A stretch of 64,000 bases of DNA from Pseudomonas marvdashtae. Its GTDB lineage: Bacteria; Pseudomonadota; Gammaproteobacteria; Pseudomonadales; Pseudomonadaceae. Both the position numbers and the translations under genes were made by a program. Location: NCBI RefSeq assembly GCF_014268655.2, contig NZ_JABWQX020000001.1:1704001-1768000 (forward strand), written 5' to 3'. Below are positions 8,088 to 48,940 of the stretch, in pieces; the stretch's first letter is position 1, and each line of letters begins with the position of its first letter. Below the pieces are notes generated by a model. It did not search any database and was not told the DNA's origin. It was given only the letters and a program-made list of their open reading frames with translations.

Positions 8088-9368
8088 TCAGAGTGTCTTG
8101 CCCAGCAAGGTCATGAAGCGATCGATCTCGGCTTCGCTGTTGAGCAGCCCCGGCGCGGTGCGCACCACCGGCCCCGCATCGCGATGCACGGCGTCGGCAA
8201 TCACGCGGTTCTGCATCAGGTAGGCAGCGATTTCGTCGCTCTTGCGCTCCTTGACGCGGAAGAAGGTGAAGCCCGCCGACAGCTCGGGGCTCAGCGGCGT
8301 GACCAGCTCGATCTGCGGCAGTGCCAGCAGTTGTTTTTTCAAGTAGCCGTTGAGGGCGCGGATGCGCGCCTGCACCTCGGCCTTACCCAGTTGCAGGTGC
8401 AACTTGAAGGCCTCGTCCGCCGCCCAGCGATGTTCGAAGGCGTGGTAACCGCCAGGCGTCATGGTGGTGGAAAACGCCGTGGCCTCGGAGAAGGTCGGGA
8501 TGATCGGCGTGACGTACTTGAGCTCTTCGCTGCGGCTGCACACCACACCGGTACCGCGCGGACCGAACATCCATTTGTGGGTGCCGGCGATGAAGAAATC
8601 GCAATTCATCGCCGGAAAATCCAGGTCCTCGACGCCGAAACCGTGCACGCCGTCCACCACATAAATGATTCGCTGTTCATCGCTGCGGCCCTGGTTGTGC
8701 TTGTCCACCAGGGCGCCGATCTTGCCGATCGGCAGCTTCACGCCGCTGCCCGAATGCACCCAGGTCATGCCCAATACGCGGGTTTCAGGGCGAATGTTGC
8801 GGTCGATGGCCGCGAGGATTTCCTCATGGCTGGCGCTGTGGGCGTTTTCGAACAGTTTGATCTTGCGCACCCGGGTGCCGTCCCGTTGCTTGCGCAAATC
8901 TAGAATGGTGTGGGTGGCGTAGTGTTCGTGGGAGGTGGTGAGGATTTCCTGGTCGGGCCGTACTTGGACGCCGCCGTAAATCATCGCCAGGCCTTCGGTG
9001 GTGCTGCCGGTGAGGGCGATCTGCTTCGGGCTCGCTTGCAGGTAGCGGCCGGCCCAGGTGCGGACGTTTTCTTCGCGCTCTTCGGTCACGCCCAGGTCCC
9101 AGTCCATCAACAGCCCCGGGTTTTTATCCAGCGCGGCACGGTGCCGTTCGATGGCCTCGCGCACGGGGCGCGGGTGGGTGGTGATCAGGAAGTTGGAGAA
9201 GTGCAGGTAGTCCGGGTCCTGGTTGAACAACGAGCGCAACTGCGCCCATTTGTCCCGGGACAGCGGCGGCAATGGATCGGCAACGGCAGTGGATGGCAGG
9301 CTGGCGGCTAACGGCAAGCCAGCGGCGAGAATCCCGGCTTGCTTGAGAAACGTGCGGCGTTCGTTCAT
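8088..9368 (-). CDS. pvdN: PvdN, periplasmic PLP enzyme acting on the pyoverdine side chain
   Basis: A 426-residue aminotransferase class V (cysteine-desulfurase-like) protein. It starts with a twin-arginine export signal, RRTFLKQAG followed by a hydrophobic stretch and an Ala-rich cleavage region. The PLP-binding region contains FFIAGTHKWMFGPRGTG with the expected lysine. PvdN is known to convert the chromophore's glutamate side chain to succinamide after Tat export. The start at 9368 gives an ATGA overlap with the pvdM stop, implying translational coupling; longer open frames upstream only read through pvdM. Confidence 0.95.
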   Translation of the reverse strand: MNERRTFLKQAGILAAGLPLAASLPSTAVADPLPPLSRDKWAQLRSLFNQDPDYLHFSNFLITTHPRPVREAIERHRAALDKNPGLLMDWDLGVTEEREENVRTWAGRYLQASPKQIALTGSTTEGLAMIYGGVQVRPDQEILTTSHEHYATHTILDLRKQRDGTRVRKIKLFENAHSASHEEILAAIDRNIRPETRVLGMTWVHSGSGVKLPIGKIGALVDKHNQGRSDEQRIIYVVDGVHGFGVEDLDFPAMNCDFFIAGTHKWMFGPRGTGVVCSRSEELKYVTPIIPTFSEATAFSTTMTPGGYHAFEHRWAADEAFKLHLQLGKAEVQARIRALNGYLKKQLLALPQIELVTPLSPELSAGFTFFRVKERKSDEIAAYLMQNRVIADAVHRDAGPVVRTAPGLLNSEAEIDRFMTLLGKTL

Positions 9369-10735
9369 GGCTGGCCGACCTTTTGGGTCGAGGCGATGGC
9401 GGGGCGGGCGGCTTTCTGGACCTGATCCCAGACCCGCAGGAAGTTGCCGCCCCACAGCTTGGCGATGTCGGCCTCGGAGTAGCCACGCGTCAGCAGTTCG
9501 GCGGTGACGTTGCGAATGTCGCCGACGTTCTCCCAGCCCTTCACGCCGCCGCCTTCGTTGAAGTCCGAGCTGATGCCGACGTGGTCGATGCCAATCTTGC
9601 GCACGGTGTAGTCGATGGCATCGCCCAGGTCCTTGAGGCTGGCCTTGGGTTCCTCCTCGAGGATGCCGTAGAGCTGGCCGGCGTACTCGCCGAACTTCTG
9701 TTCCGGCCATGCGGCAATGATCGGGTCGCCCGGCATCAGCGCCATCGCCAGGTTGGGCAATGGCGGCAGATCGAAGCGTGCGCGCAGGGTGTTGAGTTTG
9801 TCCTGGGTCTTTTGCGTCAGCGGGCGCAGGTATTGGGAAAAACCGACAATTTGCACCACGCCGCCGCTGGCCTTGATCAGCTGCATTTCCTTGTCGCTGA
9901 GGTTGCGCGGGATGTCGACCATCGCCCGTGGCGCCGAATGGGAGGCCACCAATGGCGTACGGCTCAGTTGCGCGACTTGCTCAAGGGCCGGGGTCGACAT
10001 CTGCGACACGTCGATGATCACCCCCAGGTCGTTCAGGCGTTTCACCGCTTGCTTGCCAATGTCGGAGAGACCGCCGAGGGCGTCCGGCGAATCATTGAAG
10101 AACGGCAGCGGCCGCGAAGAATCGGCCCAATCGTTATTGCCGATGTAGCTGAAGCCGAACATGCGCATGCCCCGCGCCGTCCACAGGTCGAGCAGGCTCA
10201 GGTCGTTGCCCAGTGGATAGGCGTTGAGCATGCTGATGAAGATCGCGAACTTGCCTTCGCCGTGCAGGCGTCGGAAGTCATCCGGGGTGTAGGCGATGGC
10301 GACCTGGTTGGGGAAGTCCCGGACCATGCCGGTGATGATTTTGTAACGCACTTCCTGCTGGTTGCGCGCCTCCTCGACGAAGCCGGCGGTGGGCTTGTGC
10401 GGCGCGTTGGGGCCGTTCCACAGCTCGGGCCAGCCGAAGATGGTCAGGGCCGCGCCAGACAAGTGGCCACGATTGGCTTTCACCAGGTCGAACTGGCCGC
10501 TGCCGTCCTTGTCGGCTTCATTGCCGGCGGTGCCGAAATCCAGCGGCACGGTGATGTGGCTGTCGAAGGACAGCAGGCGTTCGTGCAATTCCCTGGCCTC
10601 TTTCATCACTTTGACCGGGTAGCCTGGATTGTCCCGCCACCAATGGTCCCAGGCCGCGAGCCCGCCACCGACGACCAGCGCCAGGGCCAGGGGCACGCCG
10701 ATGAACAGAGCCTTTTTCGAACGTGGTGTTGTCAT
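9365..10735 (-). CDS. pvdM: PvdM, membrane dipeptidase-like protein of pyoverdine maturation
   Basis: A 456-residue M19 (renal dipeptidase) family protein with an N-terminal membrane anchor or signal (about residues 8-28). Family features include LLSFDSHITVP near residue 55, VVQIVGFSQYL and GIDHVGISSDFNEG. The usual metal-binding DGHND motif is altered to DSHIT, so classical dipeptidase activity is doubtful; the known role is in periplasmic ferribactin maturation. It is the first gene of the leftward operon and is preceded by an exact PvdS-type box at 10799-10822. Confidence 0.93.
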   Translation of the reverse strand: MTTPRSKKALFIGVPLALALVVGGGLAAWDHWWRDNPGYPVKVMKEARELHERLLSFDSHITVPLDFGTAGNEADKDGSGQFDLVKANRGHLSGAALTIFGWPELWNGPNAPHKPTAGFVEEARNQQEVRYKIITGMVRDFPNQVAIAYTPDDFRRLHGEGKFAIFISMLNAYPLGNDLSLLDLWTARGMRMFGFSYIGNNDWADSSRPLPFFNDSPDALGGLSDIGKQAVKRLNDLGVIIDVSQMSTPALEQVAQLSRTPLVASHSAPRAMVDIPRNLSDKEMQLIKASGGVVQIVGFSQYLRPLTQKTQDKLNTLRARFDLPPLPNLAMALMPGDPIIAAWPEQKFGEYAGQLYGILEEEPKASLKDLGDAIDYTVRKIGIDHVGISSDFNEGGGVKGWENVGDIRNVTAELLTRGYSEADIAKLWGGNFLRVWDQVQKAARPAIASTQKVGQP

Positions 10736-10798
10736 TGCCGATCTCAGTCTGGTTCGCCTTGGAAGAACAGGCTCGAGGGCCTTTGCTATCTGGGGGGA

Positions 10799-10822
10799 AC
10801 GAGCGGTCGGGCGGGAAATTTA
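10799..10822 (-). promoter_or_regulatory. PvdS/FpvI-type promoter box (IS box) for the pvdM operon
   Basis: On the minus strand TAAAT (10822-10818), 16 bases, then CGT (10801-10799) match the iron-starvation box read by the pyoverdine sigma factors. It lies 64 bases upstream of the pvdM start and back to back with the pvdP box. Confidence 0.88.
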
Positions 10823-10870
10823 GGCGCCTGCATCATCGCCATCGTCAGCAGCCGAGCGGTTTTCTTGCCT

Positions 10871-10894
10871 TAAATTTGTCCGCTCAGCCTACGT
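10871..10894 (+). promoter_or_regulatory. PvdS/FpvI-type promoter box (IS box) for pvdP
   Basis: TAAAT (10871-10875), 16 bases, CGT (10892-10894). It ends 45 bases before the pvdP ATG. With the opposite box at 10799-10822 it makes a divergent pair in the 204-base pvdM-pvdP gap. Confidence 0.88.
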
Positions 10895-10939
10895 TCTAGC
10901 TTGGATAAAGCCCGTCCCAGGGTGAACACAGGTAAGGCA

Positions 10940-12556
10940 ATGACGATTTCTCGACGATGGTTCATGGCAGGCCTGGCGCTGACCGGTGCCGCCGTGCCTG
11001 CGGTGTATTACGGGCACCGTGAACTGACCCGGCCGGACCCGACCATCACGCCCGGCGAGGCTTCGTTCGAGGTGGCGGACGTGGCGGGTCAACGCCGCGC
11101 CAATACACTGCGCGGCATCTGGACGATCCGTTTTACCGGACGCGATGCCGGGCTCGACGGGCTGCCGGACGATGGCCTGCAGGTGTTTCTCGACATTGCC
11201 CACAAGGGCCGTGGCCTGGTGGGTTGCCTCGACACCGCCGAGCGCCTGCGCGCCGGGGACGAACCGCGCTACCGCGTATTGGGCGACCTGGCCGGCAGCG
11301 ATCCGAAGCAGCTGAGCTGGCGATTGATCGGCGCCGAGCATGACGCGCCGGATTACGAATTCATCATGACCCTGGACGAAGTCTGGGCCGGCTTTGGCAA
11401 TGCCGGCACGGCCACGCTCAGCGGGCGGGTGTTGCGCCTGGATCGTCCGTTGGGGTTGCCCGAACTCGATCATCAGTTTGTTGCGGTCAAGCAGCGTTTC
11501 CCCGAAGCCCGGGAACGCATACCGCTGAGCCCGGCGTTGCTGGCCTGGCTGGTGTCACCCGAGCACCGGCTGTTCCATCAGCTCTGGCATGCCTCGCGGG
11601 ACAAATGGCACACCTTGGACGAAGACAAGCGTGATGCCTTGCGTGGCATCGGCTGGCAGCCCGGCCCGAGAGGTCAGGAACGTGATGCTCGCGGCAAGCG
11701 TAAGGACCGCAATGGCTCGGGCGTGGACTTCTTTTTCATGCACCGGCACATGCTGGGCACGGCCCGTTCGTTCCAACCGCTACCGGCGTGGCCACGCTTT
11801 CCGTTGCCGCAACCGGAGCTGGAACGTGATCGCCTCGGGTTTGCCCGGTATTTCGACAACCTCGATGGCACGGCGCTGCCGCCGACCTGGCTGGCCCGTG
11901 GTGATGAGCAGTACGCCCAGTGGGTCAGCGACATCAAGACCGCCGAGACCTATCACAGTAATTTCCAGGTTTGGGAATCGCGCTATCGCGACCCGCGCTA
12001 CCTGTCGAAATTGACCTTGGGCCAGTTCGGTTCGGAAGTGGAACTGGGCCTGCACGACTGGCTGCACATGCGCTGGGCCTCGGTACCGCGTGACCCGTCC
12101 AACGGCCACCCGGTGCCGTTCGCCCGCGACCAGGCGGACTTCGCCCAGCGTTGGTTCGAGCCGGAAAACGACTTTCTCGGTGACCCGTTTTCCTCCCATG
12201 TGAGCCCGGTGTTCTGGGCTTTCCACGGTTGGATCGACGATCGCCTCGAAGACTGGTACCGCGCCCACGAGCGCTTCCATCCGGGCGAAGTGAGCCGGCT
12301 CGAGGTCAGCGGCGTGCCTTGGTTCGCGCCCGGTCGCTGGGTCGAAATCGCCGACCCCTGGCTGGGACCGGACACCCACGGTTGCAGCACCACGCCGGGG
12401 TTGCAGAGCGGACGCTCGGTAGAGATGGACCCGGAAACCATGAAACTGGCGTTGCGCATCACGTTTGGCAGCGACGATGACAAGCTGTCCCAACTGTTCC
12501 GCCGCGTGCCGCAACGGCCGTGGTATGCGCGTAATCTGAAGTCCAAGCCGGTTTAA
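10940..12556 (+). CDS. pvdP: PvdP, periplasmic tyrosinase forming the pyoverdine chromophore
   Basis: A 538-residue copper tyrosinase. The chosen ATG gives a twin-arginine signal at the very start (SRRWFMAGLALTG) and has GGTAAGG just upstream; the in-frame start 39 bases earlier would bury the signal. Candidate copper-site histidines are in HQLWHASRDKWH, FMHRHMLG, HDWLHMRW and FWAFHGWIDDR, the last being the typical CuB helix. PvdP hydroxylates the D-Tyr of ferribactin and closes the dihydroxyquinoline ring in the periplasm. It is transcribed alone, away from pvdM. Confidence 0.95.
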   Translation: MTISRRWFMAGLALTGAAVPAVYYGHRELTRPDPTITPGEASFEVADVAGQRRANTLRGIWTIRFTGRDAGLDGLPDDGLQVFLDIAHKGRGLVGCLDTAERLRAGDEPRYRVLGDLAGSDPKQLSWRLIGAEHDAPDYEFIMTLDEVWAGFGNAGTATLSGRVLRLDRPLGLPELDHQFVAVKQRFPEARERIPLSPALLAWLVSPEHRLFHQLWHASRDKWHTLDEDKRDALRGIGWQPGPRGQERDARGKRKDRNGSGVDFFFMHRHMLGTARSFQPLPAWPRFPLPQPELERDRLGFARYFDNLDGTALPPTWLARGDEQYAQWVSDIKTAETYHSNFQVWESRYRDPRYLSKLTLGQFGSEVELGLHDWLHMRWASVPRDPSNGHPVPFARDQADFAQRWFEPENDFLGDPFSSHVSPVFWAFHGWIDDRLEDWYRAHERFHPGEVSRLEVSGVPWFAPGRWVEIADPWLGPDTHGCSTTPGLQSGRSVEMDPETMKLALRITFGSDDDKLSQLFRRVPQRPWYARNLKSKPV

Positions 12557-12573
12557 CTCTTTCTGTCTGGACT

Positions 12574-12682
12574 GATCGTTCCCACGTTTTGCGTGGGAAT
12601 GCAGCCAGGGACGCTCCGCGTCCCCAAGAGCCGAACGCAGAGCGTCCGTAGAGGCATTCCCACGCGGAGCGTGGGAACGATC
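12574..12682. repeat. Inverted pair of REP elements after pvdP
   Basis: GATCGTTCCCACG at the left end and its inverse CGTGGGAACGATC at the right end enclose GACGCTCCGCGTCC and ACGCAGAGCGTCC. This is the same family as the repeat at 1113-1229. It fills most of the 161-base gap between the convergent pvdP and the first DUF3077-like gene. Confidence 0.8.
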
Positions 12683-12717
12683 GAAAATGTCACTTGGCTT
12701 GAGGTTAGTGTGAGGTT

Positions 12718-13044
12718 TCAGCGCGGCGCGGCGATGTCCAGGGCGCGGTTTGCCAGTAGCTCGCCGAGTTCGATCATCTGCTGGATCGCCAGCGCGAAAC
12801 TCCGTCGCGAGCCTTCCAAATCAAACGCCAATTCGCTGGCCATGACGTTGACCGAGGCGAGGGTTTCGCTGAGGTTGGCCAACAGGCATTCCATGTCCGC
12901 GCCTTCTGCCACGGTGAATAGCTGGCCCGGCGGTGGACTGGGTTTTTCAGGTTTGGGATCGAGGTAAAAGGCGAGGGCGCGGTCGGCGGCTTCGTCGAGT
13001 TTCCTGGAATCGTCTTCGGGGGGAATGGGGGTGATCTTGAACAT
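12718..13044 (-). CDS. DUF3077/DUF6124-like protein, copy 1
   Basis: A 108-residue cytoplasmic protein of the Pseudomonas family that begins MFKITPxPP and ends with a conserved helical part (SETLASVNVMASELA, IQQMIELGELLANRALD). Function is unknown to me. The start has AGGAG eight bases upstream, which rules out the longer open frame. The neighbour at 13565-13891 is a near twin: I count only four differences in 108 residues (I7N, D17N, K34T, S36N). The gene sits inside the pyoverdine cluster but has no pvd-type box. It follows a long structured leader (13081-13270), so RNA-level control is likely. Confidence 0.8.
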   Translation of the reverse strand: MFKITPIPPEDDSRKLDEAADRALAFYLDPKPEKPSPPPGQLFTVAEGADMECLLANLSETLASVNVMASELAFDLEGSRRSFALAIQQMIELGELLANRALDIAAPR

Positions 13045-13080
13045 TCTGCAGCTCCTGGTTATTTCAAGGCGCTGCCAGAC

Positions 13081-13270
13081 ATCACTTGCAGATGATGGGT
13101 GGTAGCTATGTGCAGGTCTGCAAGACCGGGAAACCAGGAACCCGGCAGACCCGAAGGTCTCCCGCACACAGCCGCCATTGAGCGACACGGATGTGTCGAT
13201 TGGCTTGTGGCTATGCGCCTGGTATTTCGTCGAGCTTGCAGACCCGATCACTGATGGGCAGTGGCGGAAA
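13081..13270 (-). ncRNA. Candidate structured mRNA leader of DUF3077-like copy 1
   Basis: This 190-nt stretch holds nested stems that recur in the leader of copy 2 with changed sequence. They are 13115-13124 with 13235-13244 (10 bp), 13126-13130 with 13141-13145, 13147-13151 with 13156-13160 (loop CGAA), 13183-13188 with 13193-13198, and 13249-13253 with 13259-13263. Loop bases ACCAGG (13133-13138) can pair with CCTGGT (13218-13223), which would be a pseudoknot. CTTGCAG at 13085-13091, close to the ribosome site, is a second possible partner for 13118-13124. I infer the minus strand from the adjoining gene. The RNA itself is unproven. Confidence 0.6.
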
Positions 13271-13289
13271 ACAAGTTATCGACAGGTGG

Positions 13290-13466
13290 CCAGACGCACA
13301 AGCCGGCGGATTCTGGCGTAGTTGTAGGCAATGACGCAAGGCAACGTAGCCTCGATCGGGAGTCCTACATGGCCCGATAAACAGAACCAAAGCCGAACAC
13401 TATTTTTGACGAGACGAATTACCCGTGGCGAGGGAGCTTGCTCCCGCTGGGCTGCGCAGCGGCCCC
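13290..13466. repeat. 177-bp direct repeat, copy A (putative promoter region plus REP)
   Basis: This block recurs at 14141-14317 with the same length and only about six base differences. It lies just beyond the variable leader, so relative to the gene it is the 5'-most conserved part and probably holds the promoter; I see no convincing -35/-10 pair. Its right end runs into the GTGGCGAGGGAGCTTGC REP. Confidence 0.8.
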
Positions 13467-13535
13467 AAGATTTTGCGGTCGCTGCGCACTGGAGCGCCAG
13501 CCCGCCCGAGCGGGAGCAAGCTCCCTCGCCACGGG
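13423..13535. repeat. REPIN (inverted REP pair) between the two DUF3077-like units
   Basis: CGTGGCGAGGGAGCTTGCTC at the left is answered by GAGCAAGCTCCCTCGCCACG at the right, with a short GC-rich spacer. With the 177-bp block and the leader this accounts for the 520 gene-free bases between copies 1 and 2. Confidence 0.85.
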
Positions 13536-13564
13536 TTCACTTGGCTTGGGATTTTCTCTGAGTG

Positions 13565-13891
13565 TCAGCGCGGCGCGGCGATGTCCAGGGCGCGGTTCGC
13601 CAATAGCTCACCGAGTTCGATCATCTGCTGGATCGCCAGTGCGAAACTCCGTCGCGAGCCCTCCAGATCAAAGGCCAATTCGCTGGCCATGACGTTGACC
13701 GAGGCGAGGGTTTCGCTGAGGTTGGCCAACAGGCATTCCATGTCCGCTCCTTCTGCCACGGTGAATAGCTGGCCCGGCGGTGGATTGGGTGTTTCAGGTT
13801 TGGGATCGAGGTAAAAGGCGAGGGCGCGGTCGGCGGCTTCGTTGAGTTTCCTGGAATCGTCTTCGGGGGGATTGGGGGTGATCTTGAACAT
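13565..13891 (-). CDS. DUF3077/DUF6124-like protein, copy 2
   Basis: A 108-residue near-duplicate of the 12718-13044 protein; the C-terminal 70 residues are identical. AGGAG nine bases before the ATG at 13891 supports this start over an in-frame ATG at 13912. Gene, leader and upstream block form a unit repeated about every 850 bases, so this is a recent tandem duplication. No signal peptide or membrane segment is visible. Function unknown. Confidence 0.8.
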   Translation of the reverse strand: MFKITPNPPEDDSRKLNEAADRALAFYLDPKPETPNPPPGQLFTVAEGADMECLLANLSETLASVNVMASELAFDLEGSRRSFALAIQQMIELGELLANRALDIAAPR

Positions 13892-13929
13892 GGTGTAACT
13901 CCTAGTATTCATTTTCAGGAGCCGACACC

Positions 13930-14122
13930 ATCGCTACCAAACGATTGGGTGGCGGCCGCACGCGGGTTGGTAGACCGGAGCACTAGGAACCCGGCGCGCC
14001 CGAAGACGCCCTGCGCACGGCCACCATGAAACAGATGCCCAGACAGCATCTGCGAAGGGTGGCGCTTGCGCCTAGTTGACTCGCGGGCTACCAAACCCGA
14101 TCGCTGAAATCAGCGACCCGGA
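13930..14122 (-). ncRNA. Candidate structured mRNA leader of DUF3077-like copy 2
   Basis: It has the same architecture as 13081-13270 but different bases. Stems are 13964-13973 with 14088-14098 (one bulged A), 13975-13978 with 13991-13994, 13996-14000 with 14005-14009, 14020-14025 with 14058-14063, 14032-14038 with 14046-14052, and 14102-14106 with 14111-14115. Loop ACTAGG (13982-13987) matches CCTAGT (14071-14076), a compensated version of the pseudoknot pair in copy 1. CTACCAA at 13934-13940 is an alternative partner for TTGGTAG at 13967-13973. The one mismatch in the 13996-14009 stem is C/A on the plus strand and therefore G-U on the minus strand, which favours transcription with the gene. 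Confidence 0.6.
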
Positions 14123-14140
14123 AACAGTAAAAGCCACGAG

Positions 14141-14317
14141 CCAGACGCACAAGCCGGCGGATTCTGGCGTAGTTGTAGGCAATGACGCAAGGCAACGTAG
14201 CCTCGCTCGGGTGTCCTACATAGCCCGATAAACAGAACCCGAGCCGAACACTATTTTTGAAGAGACGAATTACCCGTGGCGAGGGAGCTTGCTCCCGCTG
14301 GGCTGCGCAGCGGCCCC
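14141..14317. repeat. 177-bp direct repeat, copy B (putative promoter region plus REP)
   Basis: Second copy of the block at 13290-13466, about 97% identical and colinear. The strong conservation here contrasts with the diverged leader beside it. Together with the leader and REPIN it explains the 529 gene-free bases before opmQ. Confidence 0.8.
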
Positions 14318-14408
14318 AGAACCAGCCGCCTCAAAACACCTGGCCCACCGATGCGCTTGCCATTGGGGCTGCTACGCAGCCCAGCGGGAGCAAGCTCCCT
14401 CGCCACGG
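14274..14408. repeat. REPIN between the DUF3077-like pair and opmQ
   Basis: An inverted pair of the CGTGGCGAGGGAGCTTGC family (left arm 14274-14317, right arm about 14365-14408) sits just downstream of the opmQ stop. Confidence 0.85.
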
Positions 14409-14420
14409 TGGTGCTCGGCT

Positions 14421-15821
14421 TTAGATCGGCGCCACCCGCCAACCCCCACCCAACGCCTTGTACAACGCCACGCTCGCCTGCACCCGCGCCAACCGCAGTT
14501 GCACGTTCATGTCCTGTGCCGCGTACAACGTGCGTTGGGTTTCGAGCACGGTGAGCAGGTCTTCGGCGCCGGCCTGGTAGCGGCTTTGGGCAATGTCGAA
14601 GGCGGTCTGGGCCTGGTGCAGTTCTTCGGTCTGCCATTGCCGTTGCTGATCCAATCCGTTGATGCTGTTCAGGGCTTTTTCGACGTCGGCGAAGCCGTTC
14701 ACGATCGCCGCGCGATAGGTTTCCAGCAATTCTTCTTGCCGGGCGCTGGCCCTGTCCCGTTCGGCCCGCAGGCGGCCGTTGTTGAAGATCGGTGCGGTCA
14801 GGCCGGCGCCGAGGTTGTAGACGTTGTTGCGCAGCAATTGATCGGCGATGTCGGCGCCAGTGGCCAAGCTCAGGCCCAGGGTGACCGAGGGCAGCATGGC
14901 GGCGCGGGCCACGGTGATATCAGCCTGAGCGGCGGCGAGGCGTGCTTCGGCGGCGGCGATATCGGGGCGGCGGCGCAGCAGCTCGCTGGGCACGCCGGCG
15001 TTGATGGCGGGCCAGTGCAAGCGGTCGAACGGTTCATCGTCGAGCTGGAGCGACTGCACCGGTTGGCCCAGCAACGCCGCGAGGGTGATCAACGCTTCGC
15101 GGGCTTGTTGTTGCACTTGCGGCACGCGGCGTTGTTGGGTCGCCACCAGGCTTTTTTGCTGGGACAGCTCCAGGGCAGTGGCGCTGCCGGCGTCGTAGCG
15201 GGTTTGCACCAGCTTCAAGACGTTTTGTGCGTTGGCCAGGTTCAGTTCGGCGATCCGCTGTTGTTCGCGCAGCGATAAGGCTTGGGTGTAACTGTTGGCG
15301 ACGCCGCTGAGCAAGGTCAGCTCCACCGTCGCCCGGTCGAACTGGCTGGCCGACAGCGAGCTCTGCGCGCTGTCCCGGGCCGCCCGCTTGCCGCCCCAGA
15401 AATCCAGCTCATAGCTGGTGCTGAGGTTGGCGTCGTAGTAATCGATGGTGCGGTTGTCCCGGTCGACGTCCAGTTGGCTGTAGCCTTTGCCGCGCAACAA
15501 TTCCTGGCGATTGCCGTTGAGCCCGGCCGTGACCGCGGGCAGCAACGGCGCGCCGGCGATCACCGCGCTGGCCTGGGCCTGGCGCACCCGGGCCATGGCC
15601 GCGGCCAAGTCGAAGCTACCCAAGCGTGCCTGTTCGATCAATTGATCGAGTTGCGGACTGCCGAAATGCGTCCACCATTGTTGGTTATCCGCTCGGCTGC
15701 CAGGGGTGTCGAGGCTCTGCCAGGCCTGGGGCGGCTGGATGCCGCTGTCCGGTGCCGACGCAGGAGTGGCGCAGGCCGCCAGCAACAGGCTGGCGGCCAG
15801 AAGGGTCAGGTGCGCTTTCAT
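14421..15821 (-). CDS. opmQ: OpmQ, outer-membrane factor of the PvdRT-OpmQ efflux system
   Basis: A 466-residue TolC/NodT-type outer-membrane lipoprotein. The signal MKAHLTLLAASLLLAAC ends in a lipobox cysteine at about residue 17. Paired OEP repeats follow, with LGAGLTAPIFNNGRLRAERD and DLLTVLETQRTLY typical of the family. With PvdT and PvdR it forms a tripartite pump that exports or recycles pyoverdine from the periplasm. A GTG at 15839 inside the pvdT stop region would add six residues; I prefer the ATG because it places the signal at the N-terminus, though neither start has a clear ribosome site. Confidence 0.93.
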   Translation of the reverse strand: MKAHLTLLAASLLLAACATPASAPDSGIQPPQAWQSLDTPGSRADNQQWWTHFGSPQLDQLIEQARLGSFDLAAAMARVRQAQASAVIAGAPLLPAVTAGLNGNRQELLRGKGYSQLDVDRDNRTIDYYDANLSTSYELDFWGGKRAARDSAQSSLSASQFDRATVELTLLSGVANSYTQALSLREQQRIAELNLANAQNVLKLVQTRYDAGSATALELSQQKSLVATQQRRVPQVQQQAREALITLAALLGQPVQSLQLDDEPFDRLHWPAINAGVPSELLRRRPDIAAAEARLAAAQADITVARAAMLPSVTLGLSLATGADIADQLLRNNVYNLGAGLTAPIFNNGRLRAERDRASARQEELLETYRAAIVNGFADVEKALNSINGLDQQRQWQTEELHQAQTAFDIAQSRYQAGAEDLLTVLETQRTLYAAQDMNVQLRLARVQASVALYKALGGGWRVAPI

Positions 15822-15831
15822 AGGGTGGGGT

Positions 15832-17802
15832 TCATTCACTGGTGAGGGCCGCGACCGGGTCGAGGCGAGCCGCCTTGCGGGCGGGCATGAAACCGAAGAC
15901 GACGCCAGTGATCAGCGCGCAACCGAAGGCGCCGAACACCGCCAGCCATTCGAAGGCCACGGCGATCTTGCCCAGCAGCAATGCGCCGCCCACCAGCAAG
16001 GCCAGGCCGATGCCGGCCAATCCACCGACCACGGAGAGCATCACCGCTTCAGTCAGGAACTGGCGCAGGATGTCGCGCTGGCGGGCGCCGGTGGCCATGC
16101 GGATGCCGATCTCCCGAGTCCGTTCGCGCACCGTCATGAGCATGATGTTCATCACGCCGATGCCGCCCACCAGCAGTGAAATCGCCGCAATGGCCCCGAG
16201 CATCAGCGACAGCGTGCCTTGGGTGCGGGCCTCGGCCTGGATCATCGCGGCGTTGTTGGTCAGCTCGAAATCCTGCTTGCCGTCATGCAGGCGCAACAGG
16301 GTGCGGGAAACGGCGTCCTCGGCTTCCTTGACCTTGCCGGCGTCCCGCGCCGCGATCACTACGTATTCCGGATGACGTGTGCCGAACAAGCGCACGCTGG
16401 CGGCGGAATAGGGCACCGCGATGCGATTGTCGGCGTCCGAGTCGCCAGAGCTGGCGCCTTTTTCGGCCAGCACGCCGACGACCTGGAACGGTACGTTTTC
16501 GATCAGGATGTAGCGGCCGATGGGATCGACGACATCCTTGAGCAACTTCTGCCGGACCTTGTAGCCGATCACGGCTACCGCTGCTGCGCTGCGTTCGTCG
16601 GCTTCGCTGAAGTAACTGCCCTGGGCCACCGGCCAATTGAAAATGGTCGGGAAGTTGGTGTCGTTGCCGCCCACATAGCTGGTGTGGTCGAGGTTGCCGA
16701 AACGCACGTTGGCGTTGTTGCCGTTGACCGGCATGATGCGCTGCACTTCGGGCAGGGCGGCGAGGGCGGCAATGTCGTGTTCGCTGATGATGCCCTTGGT
16801 GGCGCGCGGATTGGGTGCCGTGCCGTTGAGGTAGATAATGTTCGAGCCGAAGGCGCCCATCTGGGCCATGACCTGGCGCTTGCTGCCTTCGCCCACGGCC
16901 AGCATCACCACCACCGAGGCCACGCCGATGACGATGCCGAGCAAGGTCAGGGCGGTGCGAAAGCGGTTGATCCACATCACTCGCCACGCCGCTTGTACCG
17001 CGTCGATCAGCTCACCTTTCCAGGCACCGTTGTGCTCGCTGCCGGCGCTCAGGCGCTGGCGCAGGTCCACCGCTTGCAACGCGTTCGGATTGGCTTGTGG
17101 GGCGGTCGGCGAAGCGGTGGCGCTGTCGCTGATGATCAGCCCATCGCGGATTTCGATGATGCGTTTGGCCCGCGCGGCCACGTCGCGATCGTGGGTGATC
17201 AGGATCACCACATGACCCTGGCTCGCCAGTTCGTCGAGTAGCGCCATGACCTCGATCCCGCTCTGGCTGTCGAGCGCGCCGGTGGGTTCGTCGGCGAGGA
17301 TGATGTGCCCGCCGTTCATCAAGGCCCGGGCAATCGATACCCGCTGTTGCTGCCCGCCGGACAGCTGGTGGGGACGGTTGCCGGTGCGGCTTGCCAAGCC
17401 GAGGCGTTCGAGCAGGGCGCTGGCCCGGGCGTGGCGCTCGGCGGCCGAGGTGCCGGCGTAGATGGCCGGCATCTCGACGTTTTCCTGGGCGCTGCCGGAG
17501 GGGATCAGGTGGTAGCCCTGAAACACAAAGCCAAACGCTTCGCGCCGCAGCCAGGCGAGTTCGTCGCTGCCCAGGCCGGCGACGTCTTCGCCGGCGAAAA
17601 GATACTCGCCACGGGTGGGACGGTCGAGGCAGCCGAGGATATTCATCAGCGTCGATTTACCGGAGCCGGACGCCCCGACAATCGCCAGGAACTCCCCCGC
17701 ATGGATCGACAAGTCGATGCCACGCAAGACTTCCACCCGTGGGCTGTCGCCGCCGCCGTAGGCCTTGCGAATGTCCCGCAGTTCGATCAGGGGCGTATCC
17801 AT
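15832..17802 (-). CDS. pvdT: PvdT, MacB-type ABC transporter of pyoverdine export
   Basis: A 656-residue MacB-like fusion. The N-terminal ATPase (about 1-225) has Walker [10 protein letters not shown], signature [10 protein letters not shown] and Walker [12 protein letters not shown]. One membrane segment near 275 precedes a large periplasmic domain, and three segments follow at the C-terminus (the last from about 600). It couples ATP use to periplasmic substrate transfer through PvdR into OpmQ. Only one base separates the pvdR stop from its ATG, so the genes are tightly coupled. Confidence 0.95.
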
Positions 17803-47260: not shown

Positions 47261-48940
47261 ATGCGCCTGAGCTTGAAGGCTAAAGTCCTGTCCCTGGCAA
47301 TACTGCCGGTATTGCTGTCCGCGGTGATCATCAGTCTGACCACTGCGTTCATCTTGAAGGAACAGGCCAGCAAAGAAGTCCAGCAGACCCGCGAACGCCT
47401 GCTCAGCGAGGCCAAGGCCACGCTGCAGAATTATGTCGCGGTCGGGCTTACCGCCATCAAACCGCTGTACGATGCCGCCGCACCCGGTGATAACGAGGCG
47501 CGCGCCCAGGCGATCAAGCTGCTGTCGAATATCAGCTACGGCAAGGACGGCTACTTTTTCGGCTACGACTCCGAGACCATTCGCCTGTTCAAGGCCAACA
47601 GCCCGGATGGCGTGGGCAAGAGTTTCAAGGACAACCGCGACCCGAACGGTGTCTACGTCAACCGTGACCTGGTGAAAGTCGCCAAGGACGGGACGCATTA
47701 CCTGGAATACAGCTCGCCGCTGCCCGGCAGCAAGGACCTGGTGCCCAAGCTCGGCTACACCGACTACCTGTCCAAATGGGACATGGCGGTCGGCAGCTCG
47801 GTCAACCTGGACGGCATCGAAGCCCAGGTGGCGCTGGTGGAAGCCAAGGTCCATGATCGCCTGCAAGGCGTGATCCTGAGCATCGTCGGGATCGCCGCCG
47901 TGGTGTTGCTGGTGATCGCGGTGGTGGGCCTGGTGCTCGCCAATACGATCCTGCGTCCTCTGCACTTGATGAAAGCCAACCTCGATGACATCGCGGCGGG
48001 CGAGGGCGACCTGACCCGGCGCTTGACCATCACCAGCCAGGATGAACTGGGCCAACTGGCCGGTTCGTTTAACCGCTTCGTCGACAAGATCCACGGCCTG
48101 GTAAGGCAGATCACCGACATGACCTCGCAACTGACCGGGCTGGTAACGCAAGTGTCCGAACAGGCCCAGCGTTCCGAGCAGGCCATGGAGCGCCAGCGCC
48201 ACGAAACCGACCAGGTCGCCACGGCGATCAACGAGATGTCCTCCGCTGCCCAGGAAGTCGCTCGCAGTGCCCAGGGCGCCGCCGTCGCGGCCCAGCAGAC
48301 CGACGAAGAAGGGCAATCGGCCAAGCGCGTGGTCGCCGGCAGCATCCAGCAGATCCATGCGCTGGTAAACGACATCCGCAGCAGCGGCGTATCTTTGGAC
48401 AGCCTGCAGCAGGACGTGGCGTCGATCGTCAGTGTGCTTGGCGTGATTCGTTCGATCGCCGAGCAGACCAACCTGCTGGCGCTCAACGCTGCTATCGAGG
48501 CCGCGCGTGCCGGCGAGGCGGGCCGTGGTTTTGCGGTGGTCGCCGACGAAGTCCGCGCCCTGGCCAGCCGAACCCAGCAAAGCACCCAGGAAATCCAGGG
48601 CATGATTGACCGCCTGCAATCGGGCACGCATGCGGCGGTGGAGGCCATGCGCCGGTCCAGCGAGGCGGGCGACGGCACGTCATTGCAGGCCAACGAGGCG
48701 GGCGCGTCGCTGGACACCATGGCGCAGTTGATCGGTACCATCAATTCGATGAACGCCCAGATCGCCAGCGCGGCCGAAGAGCAGACCGCCGTGGCCGAGG
48801 AAATCAACCGCAGCGTGCACCAGATTGCCGTGGCGGTGGACAGCGTCGCTGACGAAACGCAGCTTGGCGCCCAGACCTCCCGCAGCCTGGCCGAGCTGGG
48901 CCAGCGCTTGGGCAAACTGGTGGGGCAGTTCCGGATCTGA
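47261..48940 (+). CDS. Methyl-accepting chemotaxis protein (Cache sensor)
   Basis: A 559-residue chemoreceptor: membrane segment 1 (about 10-31), periplasmic Cache-type sensor (about 35-190, [20 protein letters not shown]), membrane segment 2 (about 200-225), HAMP ([19 protein letters not shown]), and a signalling domain whose hairpin tip reads [20 protein letters not shown]. Ligand unknown; small organic acids are common for this sensor type. Confidence 0.93.

Follow-up and report, generated by a model that had tools for sequence, protein, structure and literature searches.

The 64,000-nucleotide stretch of the Pseudomonas marvdashtae genome analysed here (contig NZ_JABWQX020000001.1, positions 1,704,001 to 1,768,000; hereafter the window) carries two tandem units at 12718-14172, both on the minus strand. 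Each unit reads, from 5' to 3', a promoter-like element common to the two, a region called a1b1, a C4 antisense RNA, two downstream sites and a 108-codon gene of the DUF6124 family. From start codon to promoter-like element, copy 1 covers 13042-13321 and copy 2 covers 13889-14172. Both leaders are C4 antisense RNAs of the phage type (Rfam RF01695) on the minus strand, and each copy is very probably a self-silencing C4 module in which the mechanism of bacteriophage P1 has moved to the chromosome. The features of copy 2 and then copy 1 are as follows.

14144-14172, minus strand: copy 2 promoter-like element, CTACGCCAGAATCCGCCGGCTTGTGCGYC, common to the units; putative promoter
14071-14095, minus strand: copy 2 a1b1, putative upstream decoy sites (junction target 14088-14095, hairpin-loop target 14071-14076)
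14080-14130: copy 2 match to the c4-a1b1 motif (RF03163), 42.4 bits, below the cut-off of 46.7
13945-14031, minus strand: copy 2 C4 antisense RNA (RF01695, 80.0 bits, cut-off 45)
13979-13990 and 13967-13973, minus strand: hairpin loop and junction of the copy 2 C4
13934-13940, minus strand: copy 2 downstream junction target TTGGTAG, at the position of P1 a2
13900-13906, minus strand: copy 2 hairpin-loop target ACTAGGA, at the position of P1 b2, overlapping the Shine-Dalgarno sequence
13565-13891, minus strand: copy 2 DUF6124 protein, 108 amino acids (PF19619, 104.4 bits, cut-off 27)
13293-13321, minus strand: copy 1 promoter-like element (shared)
13218-13244, minus strand: copy 1 a1b1, putative upstream decoy sites (junction target 13235-13244, hairpin-loop target 13218-13223)
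13227-13278: copy 1 match to c4-a1b1 (RF03163), 17.6 bits, below the cut-off of 46.7
13095-13182, minus strand: copy 1 C4 antisense RNA (RF01695, 73.8 bits, cut-off 45)
13130-13141 and 13117-13124, minus strand: hairpin loop and junction of the copy 1 C4
13085-13092, minus strand: copy 1 downstream junction target TCTGCAAG
13053-13060, minus strand: copy 1 hairpin-loop target AACCAGGA, overlapping the Shine-Dalgarno sequence
12718-13044, minus strand: copy 1 DUF6124 protein, 108 amino acids (PF19619, 104.3 bits, cut-off 27)

A preliminary description of this DNA had proposed selected, structured and covarying RNA leaders before the twin DUF6124 genes, and had guessed that they might belong to a catalogued family. 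The Rfam search bears out the guess, with RF01695 matched at 80.0 and 73.8 bits against a cut-off of 45 (E values of 4.4e-15 and 1.5e-13 for the two matches), and these scores, the folds of shuffled sequences and changes on both sides of base pairs bear out the selected structure. The leaders also diverge strongly between the copies, as described, at 59.5% identity in the a1b1 part, 67.8% in C4 and 61.1% from C4 to the start codon. The statement that no function had been described fails for the family, as the P1 record annotates its C4 sites as repressing translation of icd/ant.

That record (AF234172) annotates a1, b1, c4, a2, b2 and icd in this order; a2 (48423-48429) immediately follows c4, and b2 (48452-48459) closely precedes icd at 48470. 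The spacing from c4 to icd is 50 nucleotides in P1 (48419 to 48470). In 30 units of the P. marvdashtae genome, 45-56 nucleotides separate the end of the Rfam C4 model, a few nucleotides past the P1 mature end, from the start codon. In the P1 naming, the hairpin loop that pairs with the ribosome-binding site is b' and the junction is a'. As a positive control, the complementarity test used here recovered all four annotated C4 sites in P1. Sites complementary to the C4 loops are found upstream, in a1b1, in both copies of the window, and a sub-threshold match to Rfam isrK adjoins the copy-2 a1b1 region (27.8 bits, cut-off 50).

The sequence elements from which the preliminary description had drawn its stems are all present (GGTCTGCAAG/CTTGCAGACC, TTGGTAG/CTACCAA, ACCAGG/CCTGGT and ACTAGG/CCTAGT), but the single intramolecular fold assembled from them does not stand: its variable "stems" are the pairing code between the C4 antisense RNA and its target. 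What had been read as a closing stem (the first two pairs) is the C4 junction with its upstream site, what had been read as a possible pseudoknot (the last two) is the C4 hairpin loop with its upstream site, and these supposedly separate helices are two halves of one antisense-target interaction. The CGAA-loop hairpin survives as the CGAA/TTCG second stem of C4, and the small hairpins CACTG/CAGTG and CGACAC/GTGTCG are sited in the upstream part of the leader. The description had also missed the third partner of both pairings, which lies between C4 and the gene at 13085-13092 and 13053-13060 in copy 1 and at 13934-13940 and 13900-13906 in copy 2. In either copy the latter site overlaps the Shine-Dalgarno sequence. 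The fold as drawn may be an alternative conformer of the precursor. A cis riboswitch or a single pseudoknotted leader was otherwise dropped, and no catalogued riboswitch is found among the 13 Rfam matches with E up to 5 at 11000-17000 of the window.

The twin units belong to a large set. The P. marvdashtae genome (5.9 megabases, 18 contigs) holds at least 31 C4 RNAs above the cut-off, which is a lower bound because 150 of 1810 first-look candidates were scored. It also holds 34 DUF6124 genes above the cut-off, 26 of them with a C4 93-215 base pairs (bp) upstream of the domain on the same strand. Seen from the RNA, 26 of the 31 C4 have DUF6124 downstream, one of the 26 (L020) being a broken unit with a disrupted leader. 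Other small open reading frames (ORFs) follow C4 at L011, L014 and L016, with no Pfam match for the two submitted (L011 and L016); L001 has a short ORF only and L029 lies at a contig end. The 29-bp promoter-like element occurs in 23 copies in this genome at up to 3 mismatches, with 0 for a reversed-pattern control, and 22 of the 23 stand 89-123 bp before a C4. It is also present in 25 of 59 genus genomes, this one included (control 0). We infer that the element is a shared promoter or operator; a promoter-consensus scan made no call at it.

Twenty-three of the 31 C4 RNAs could be aligned, and in these 96.3% of the cells of the three-stem C4 fold are paired. Changes on both sides were found in 18 of the 27 family pairs, a number that 0 of 500 shuffles reach and for which slid controls give 1-5. 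Compared with dinucleotide shuffles, the minus-strand C4 folds at z = -3.1 in copy 2 (2 of 200 as good) and at z = -4.0 in copy 1 (0 of 200), and the plus strand of the C4 stretches gives z = -0.04 and -3.1. The 191-nucleotide leaders reach z = -4.0 and -3.6, with no shuffle as good. Most C4 RNAs of this genome carry ATGG at the expected C4 5' end.

About 30 C4 units in the genome have pairing codes that mostly differ from each other. C4 loops trimmed of stem bases were scored for two-site complementarity to 30 unit leaders. In 28 of 30 cases a C4 scores higher on its own leader than on any other (z = 18.3, 0 of 100,000 permutations), and the mean two-site score is 38.2 for own leaders and 22.9 for others. 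This test covered 30 of the 31 C4, with L020 and its disrupted leader left out and L001 with its short ORF included. When the test is made free of start codons, the own leader is best for 27 of 31 in this genome, L020 included, and for 24 of 28 in a second genome, G010 (z = 16.7; 35 C4 above the cut-off, 28 of 30 loci parsed). In a third, G061, where most downstream genes are not DUF6124, it is best for 19 of 21 (21 of 24 C4 parsed), and the hairpin loop alone picks it in 14 of 21. Scored separately as an independent stretch, the upstream sites reach z = 12.4 in the own genome and z = 13.3 in G010. All 31 hairpin loops of the own genome are distinct. Within the window, the C4 of copy 1 prefers its own target in both parts, with a free energy (dG) of -16.5 for the loop (-10.1 on copy 2) and -11.8 for the junction (-5.9 on copy 2).

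Two adjoining units of G010 (L099 and L107, G010:C1:741014-741820) share both C4 loops, an exception to private coding, and the L107 leader apparently lacks a proper gene start. G061 has tandem C4 pairs at G061:C1:1136623-1136875 and 868644-868881, about 80 and 64 bp apart, with no obvious gene directly downstream; the hairpin loops of the former pair are identical.

Specificity and coding sequence have had separate histories at the window locus. Copies 1 and 2 are 93.2% identical in the promoter-side flank (89.6% over another stretch) and 96.3% in the coding sequence, and 59.5-67.8% identical in the control parts (72.0% with the control region cut differently). With the same genes on either side, a single unit is present in P. 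thivervalensis (L116, copy-1 type), in P. zanjanensis (L118, copy-2 type) and in P. frederiksbergensis (L119, copy-2 type, gene frameshifted). P. brassicacearum subsp. neoaurantiaca has one unit of each type (L117, L123), about 55 kilobases apart on the same contig. Across species, control regions are 94.3-98.6% identical within a type and 59.4-63.9% between types. The coding sequence of copy 1 is 86.9% identical to that of its type partner L116, and those of L116 and L118, which differ in type and species, are 94.2% identical. The comparison of coding sequence with type rests on the two window copies, L116, L117 and L118, the identities of L119, L120 and L123 (3 of 8) being unreliable because these sequences are shortened by a contig end or a frameshift. 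Two specificity types thus persist across species at the locus and the full-length coding sequence does not follow them; therefore coding sequences were exchanged or homogenised, with the two specificities remaining distinct. Hairpin loops differ as well in two other near-identical coding-sequence pairs of the own genome (98.6% and 96.4%), and control-region identity hardly correlates with coding-sequence identity when all own pairs are compared (r = 0.12).

The DUF6124 protein is under purifying selection, with a ratio of nonsynonymous to synonymous substitution rates (dN/dS) of 0.09-0.15 in the five full-length coding sequences of the eight. Its predicted fold is an N-terminal helix followed by a two-helix hairpin (mean predicted local distance difference test score, pLDDT, 79.7; predicted template modelling score, pTM, 0.53). 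No significant structural match to this fold was found in the PDB (best E 0.54), and a sequence match to an engineered protein (E 0.0014) was uninformative. Our guess is that the product is a protein-binding regulator.

C4 RNAs and DUF6124 go together through the genus. C4 is present in 137 of 149 genus genomes, the own one included, and 33 of the 149 reach at least 27 copies, in counts made under stricter filters with at most 27 candidates per genome scored for the genus and at most 18 for the class. DUF6124 is present in 112 of the 149. Its number per genome correlates with that of C4 (Spearman 0.83), and of the 12 genomes that have no C4, 11 have no DUF6124 either. In a sample of 228 further genomes of the class, DUF6124 is absent and C4 occurs in 11, with 1 to 4 copies in each. 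A scan of loci from related genomes found C4 above the cut-off in 17 of 20 scanned loci (of 26). In the loci of other genomes, DUF3077 and families without assignment stand directly downstream of C4. Of six genomes rich in C4 and poor in DUF6124, four carry 14-21 genes for DUF3077 and the others 5 and 7, as counts per genome rather than gene-by-gene linkage. All four Pseudomonas phage records fetched contain C4. In one of the phage records (DVM-2008, EU982300.1, L072), a C4-DUF6124 unit is divergent from the prophage repressor gene prtR. Searches for the DUF6124 protein found one phage record and no plasmid. C4 units are possibly linked to tailocin or prophage repressors.

The linked genes vary in kind. 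L001 (G000:C2:635415-635501) is a C4 unit divergent from a Cro/CI-type, Peptidase_S24 repressor gene. Proteins of one type follow C4 at L051, L053, L056, L057, L059, L060 and L063, and the one tested (L051) has a BRO N-terminal domain; the C4-BRO arrangement is nearer to phage antirepressor control. A C4-linked family of about 90 amino acids that starts like MNRYMPITGHDC is found at L011, L047, L049, L177, L180, L190 and L195, with no Pfam match for the two members submitted (L011 and L049). At L039, L040, L045, L048, L055, L065 and similar loci, an ORF of 52-57 amino acids (HALNPSKIRA type; no Pfam match for the one submitted) comes first after C4. Where translation of the locus was extended, this ORF is followed by DUF3077-like or other small genes; its position is that of P1 icd or Gifsy orf45.

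In the mechanism that we propose, a single minus-strand transcript would carry the a1b1 decoys, C4, the target sites (one over the Shine-Dalgarno sequence) and the DUF6124 gene. C4 would be excised from it as an RNA of about 77 nucleotides, by homology with P1 through RNase P at the 5' side. Its hairpin loop and junction would then bind the two target sites on further transcripts from the same unit and so deny ribosomes access. Given that most loops have a private code, each of the roughly 30 paralogous units would silence itself and, for the most part, leave the others alone. The upstream a1b1 would be a competitor for these loops and may, in some units, keep C4 in a different fold within the precursor. 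Expression would need low C4, as when a unit enters a cell without that C4, in a burst of transcription or when processing fails. The role of a1b1 as a competitor is suggested because the predicted precursor folds of the window copies and of 14 of the 31 loci contain the pairing and because the cognate gain exceeds the swapped one. In both 191-nucleotide leaders the predicted lowest-energy fold includes a1b1:C4 pairing, and the refolded precursor is the predicted optimum at 14 of the 31 own-genome loci. Across the 31 loci, folding the two parts jointly rather than separately usually gains little, on average -4.4 kcal/mol for cognate and -2.1 for swapped combinations (z = -8.0), and in only 5 does the cognate upstream segment outrank all others as joint-fold partner.

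Several observations weigh against self-silencing by private C4 pairing. Specificity is not absolute: taken alone, the hairpin loop is best for its own leader in 26 of 30 units (25 without ties), and the junction is uniquely best in only 7 of 30, because several units share junctions (10 types). When duplex energies were used with stem bases left in, the loop ranked its own target first in 13 of 30 units and the junction did so in 14 of 30, although no permutation reached the sum; raw duplex energies were abandoned as a measure, being confounded by the shared stem bases CCGG, and trimmed loops were used instead. The hairpin loop of the copy 2 C4 hardly discriminates its own target from that of copy 1 (-11.1 against -10.0), while its junction energies differ (-8.5 own, -3.2 on copy 1), so its discrimination rests on the junction. 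Two of the 28 units of G010 have both loops in common, and another two have the same hairpin loop. The upstream sites are uniquely best for their own unit in only 18 of 31 (own genome) and 17 of 28 (G010), and both a1b1 regions of the window fall under the RF03163 cut-off (42.4 and 17.6 against 46.7 bits). Taken alone, the copy-2 C4 has a predicted lowest-energy fold that departs from the family fold in the third hairpin. BLASTP gave no alignment of DUF6124 with P1 Icd. Finally, 8 of the 34 DUF6124 genes are without C4, and C4 is therefore not required for every member. One of these eight (L032) has no ATG or GTG start, two (L035 and L036) are apparently 5'-truncated and one lies at a contig end; L033 is an open gene that keeps a1b1-like sites and the ribosome-binding site, the leader of L034 is altered and has a1b1-like sites; L037 and L038 are apparently intact and divergent.

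The precursor folds would also serve a cis-acting switch: intramolecular pairing of a1b1 and C4 would then be all that controls the gene, and no free antisense RNA would take part. Both leaders of the window fold in this way, the cognate gain beats the swapped one over the 31 loci, and for the isrK-orf45-anrP locus of Salmonella Gifsy-1 a mechanism of alternative structures is reported (PMC4825925). We hold such a switch to be unlikely, as fewer than half of the loci have the refolded precursor as optimum, the own-leader test places a second complementary site on the ribosome-binding region, where P1 has an annotated C4 target, and in Acinetobacter far more RNA-seq reads are reported over the C4 part than over the upstream part (PMC5320573). 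Acting in trans, C4 RNAs could instead work mainly as a shared network, on each other's targets or on unrelated mRNAs, with private pairing a by-product. The 10 junction types spread over 30 units and the hairpin loops shared in G010 fit a network, and other bacterial targets have been proposed for the Acinetobacter C4-like RNAs (PMC5320573), but the two-site score picks the own leader, among targets inside C4 units, in 28 of 30, 24 of 28 and 19 of 21 cases, and we give a network little chance of being the main role.

As addiction or selfish modules, the units would encode a harmful DUF6124 protein with C4 as its RNA antitoxin, much like type I toxin-antitoxin systems. This is possible though doubtful. 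Antisense control of a small protein in many dispersed paralogs would suit it, as would the missing start, the two apparent 5' truncations and the contig-end cut among the eight C4-less genes, and P1 Icd, at the same position, is annotated as an inhibitor of cell division. Pointing the other way, C4-less L037 and L038 look intact, L033 is open with a1b1-like sites, and the protein is under purifying selection with a predicted helical hairpin of no significant PDB match. That the units are decayed prophage remnants without present function is hardly credible: C4 is a phage element, present in every phage record fetched, and units L001 and L020 are broken, but the low dN/dS, the kept complementarity of loop and target, the compensatory stem changes and the presence throughout the genus all speak for maintenance. 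The self-silencing module remains our preferred reading of each copy.

More tentatively, the units together may form a chromosomal library of several dozen largely orthogonal antisense/target pairs, whose types are kept apart across species by selection against cross-silencing. If so, the C4 codes would be immunity classes of DUF6124/DUF3077 modules, like phage immunity or plasmid incompatibility groups, and an incoming unit with a new code would be expressed while one with a resident code would be silenced.

Long inverted repeats flank the units of the window (13420-13537, 14274-14404 and 12575-12690), starting with GTGGCGAGGGAGCTTGCTCCCGC and also of the GATCGTTCCCACG type. By appearance they resemble repetitive extragenic palindromic (REP) elements, and one such repeat lies directly 3' of C4 in the broken unit L020. 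The microRNA-family matches in the window were rejected, being under their cut-offs and located on inverted repeats (13420-13537 and 14274-14404). On the side of lower coordinates, from 8088 to 12556 of the window, the twin units are bordered by a pyoverdine gene (10901-12556, a PvdP match with E 5.6e-238) and a PvdN match (8091-9413). On the other side, an outer-membrane efflux gene (14421-15839, OEP domain) is followed by MacB-like and MacA-like ORFs, in a region that extends to 18952. We take these efflux genes to resemble the pvdRT-opmQ efflux cluster.

With the C4 assignment, an extensive, little-described layer of control in a major bacterial genus acquires an identity at the level of mechanism, a chromosomal C4 family gains linked target genes, and DUF6124 and DUF3077 come into a testable regulatory context. 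The units would also provide a natural set of translational repressors, largely orthogonal to each other, on which one could measure directly what rules govern RNA specificity and the coexistence of paralogs. In the literature searched, mostly at listing level and without subscription papers or supplements, we found no description of C4-DUF6124 units; DUF6124 was unnamed there, and DUF3077 was named in a study of furfural tolerance.

Among known systems, the nearest is the C4 RNA of phages P1 and P7 (RF01695), where c4 represses the synthesis of P1 Ant proteins (PMC8546580). The units share with it the family, the fold, the order of decoy, C4, target and gene, the target on the ribosome-binding site and the distance of about 50 nucleotides to the start codon. 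They are unlike it in being chromosomal, in numbering at least 31 per genome with mostly differing codes, and in having DUF6124 in place of the icd and ant of the P1 immI operon (c4-icd-ant). The Gifsy-1 isrK-orf45-anrP locus is similar in that an upstream RNA pairs with the leader that controls a small ORF and an antirepressor-like gene, but IsrK activates translation in trans, and the terms "C4 RNA" and "RNase P" are absent from the main text of that paper (PMC4825925). Weinberg et al. (2010) predicted the motifs c4 and c4-a1b1, the latter in gamma-Proteobacteria and phages; the text of that study consulted here does not give copy number, linkage to DUF6124/DUF3077 or private coding, some of which the supplement may hold (PMC2864571). 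According to PMC5320573, the C4 predictions include Pseudomonadales. That paper describes the Group 1 small RNAs of Acinetobacter baumannii, 21 similar C4-like sequences in one genome, which are like the present set in forming a large chromosomal family with a variable loop and apparent RNase P-type processing. In the text of that study consulted here no targets are identified for them (PMC5320573), whereas in Pseudomonas each C4 mostly picks its own linked gene. C4 itself has long been known; dozens of largely privately coded C4-gene modules in one chromosome are a new variation on it.

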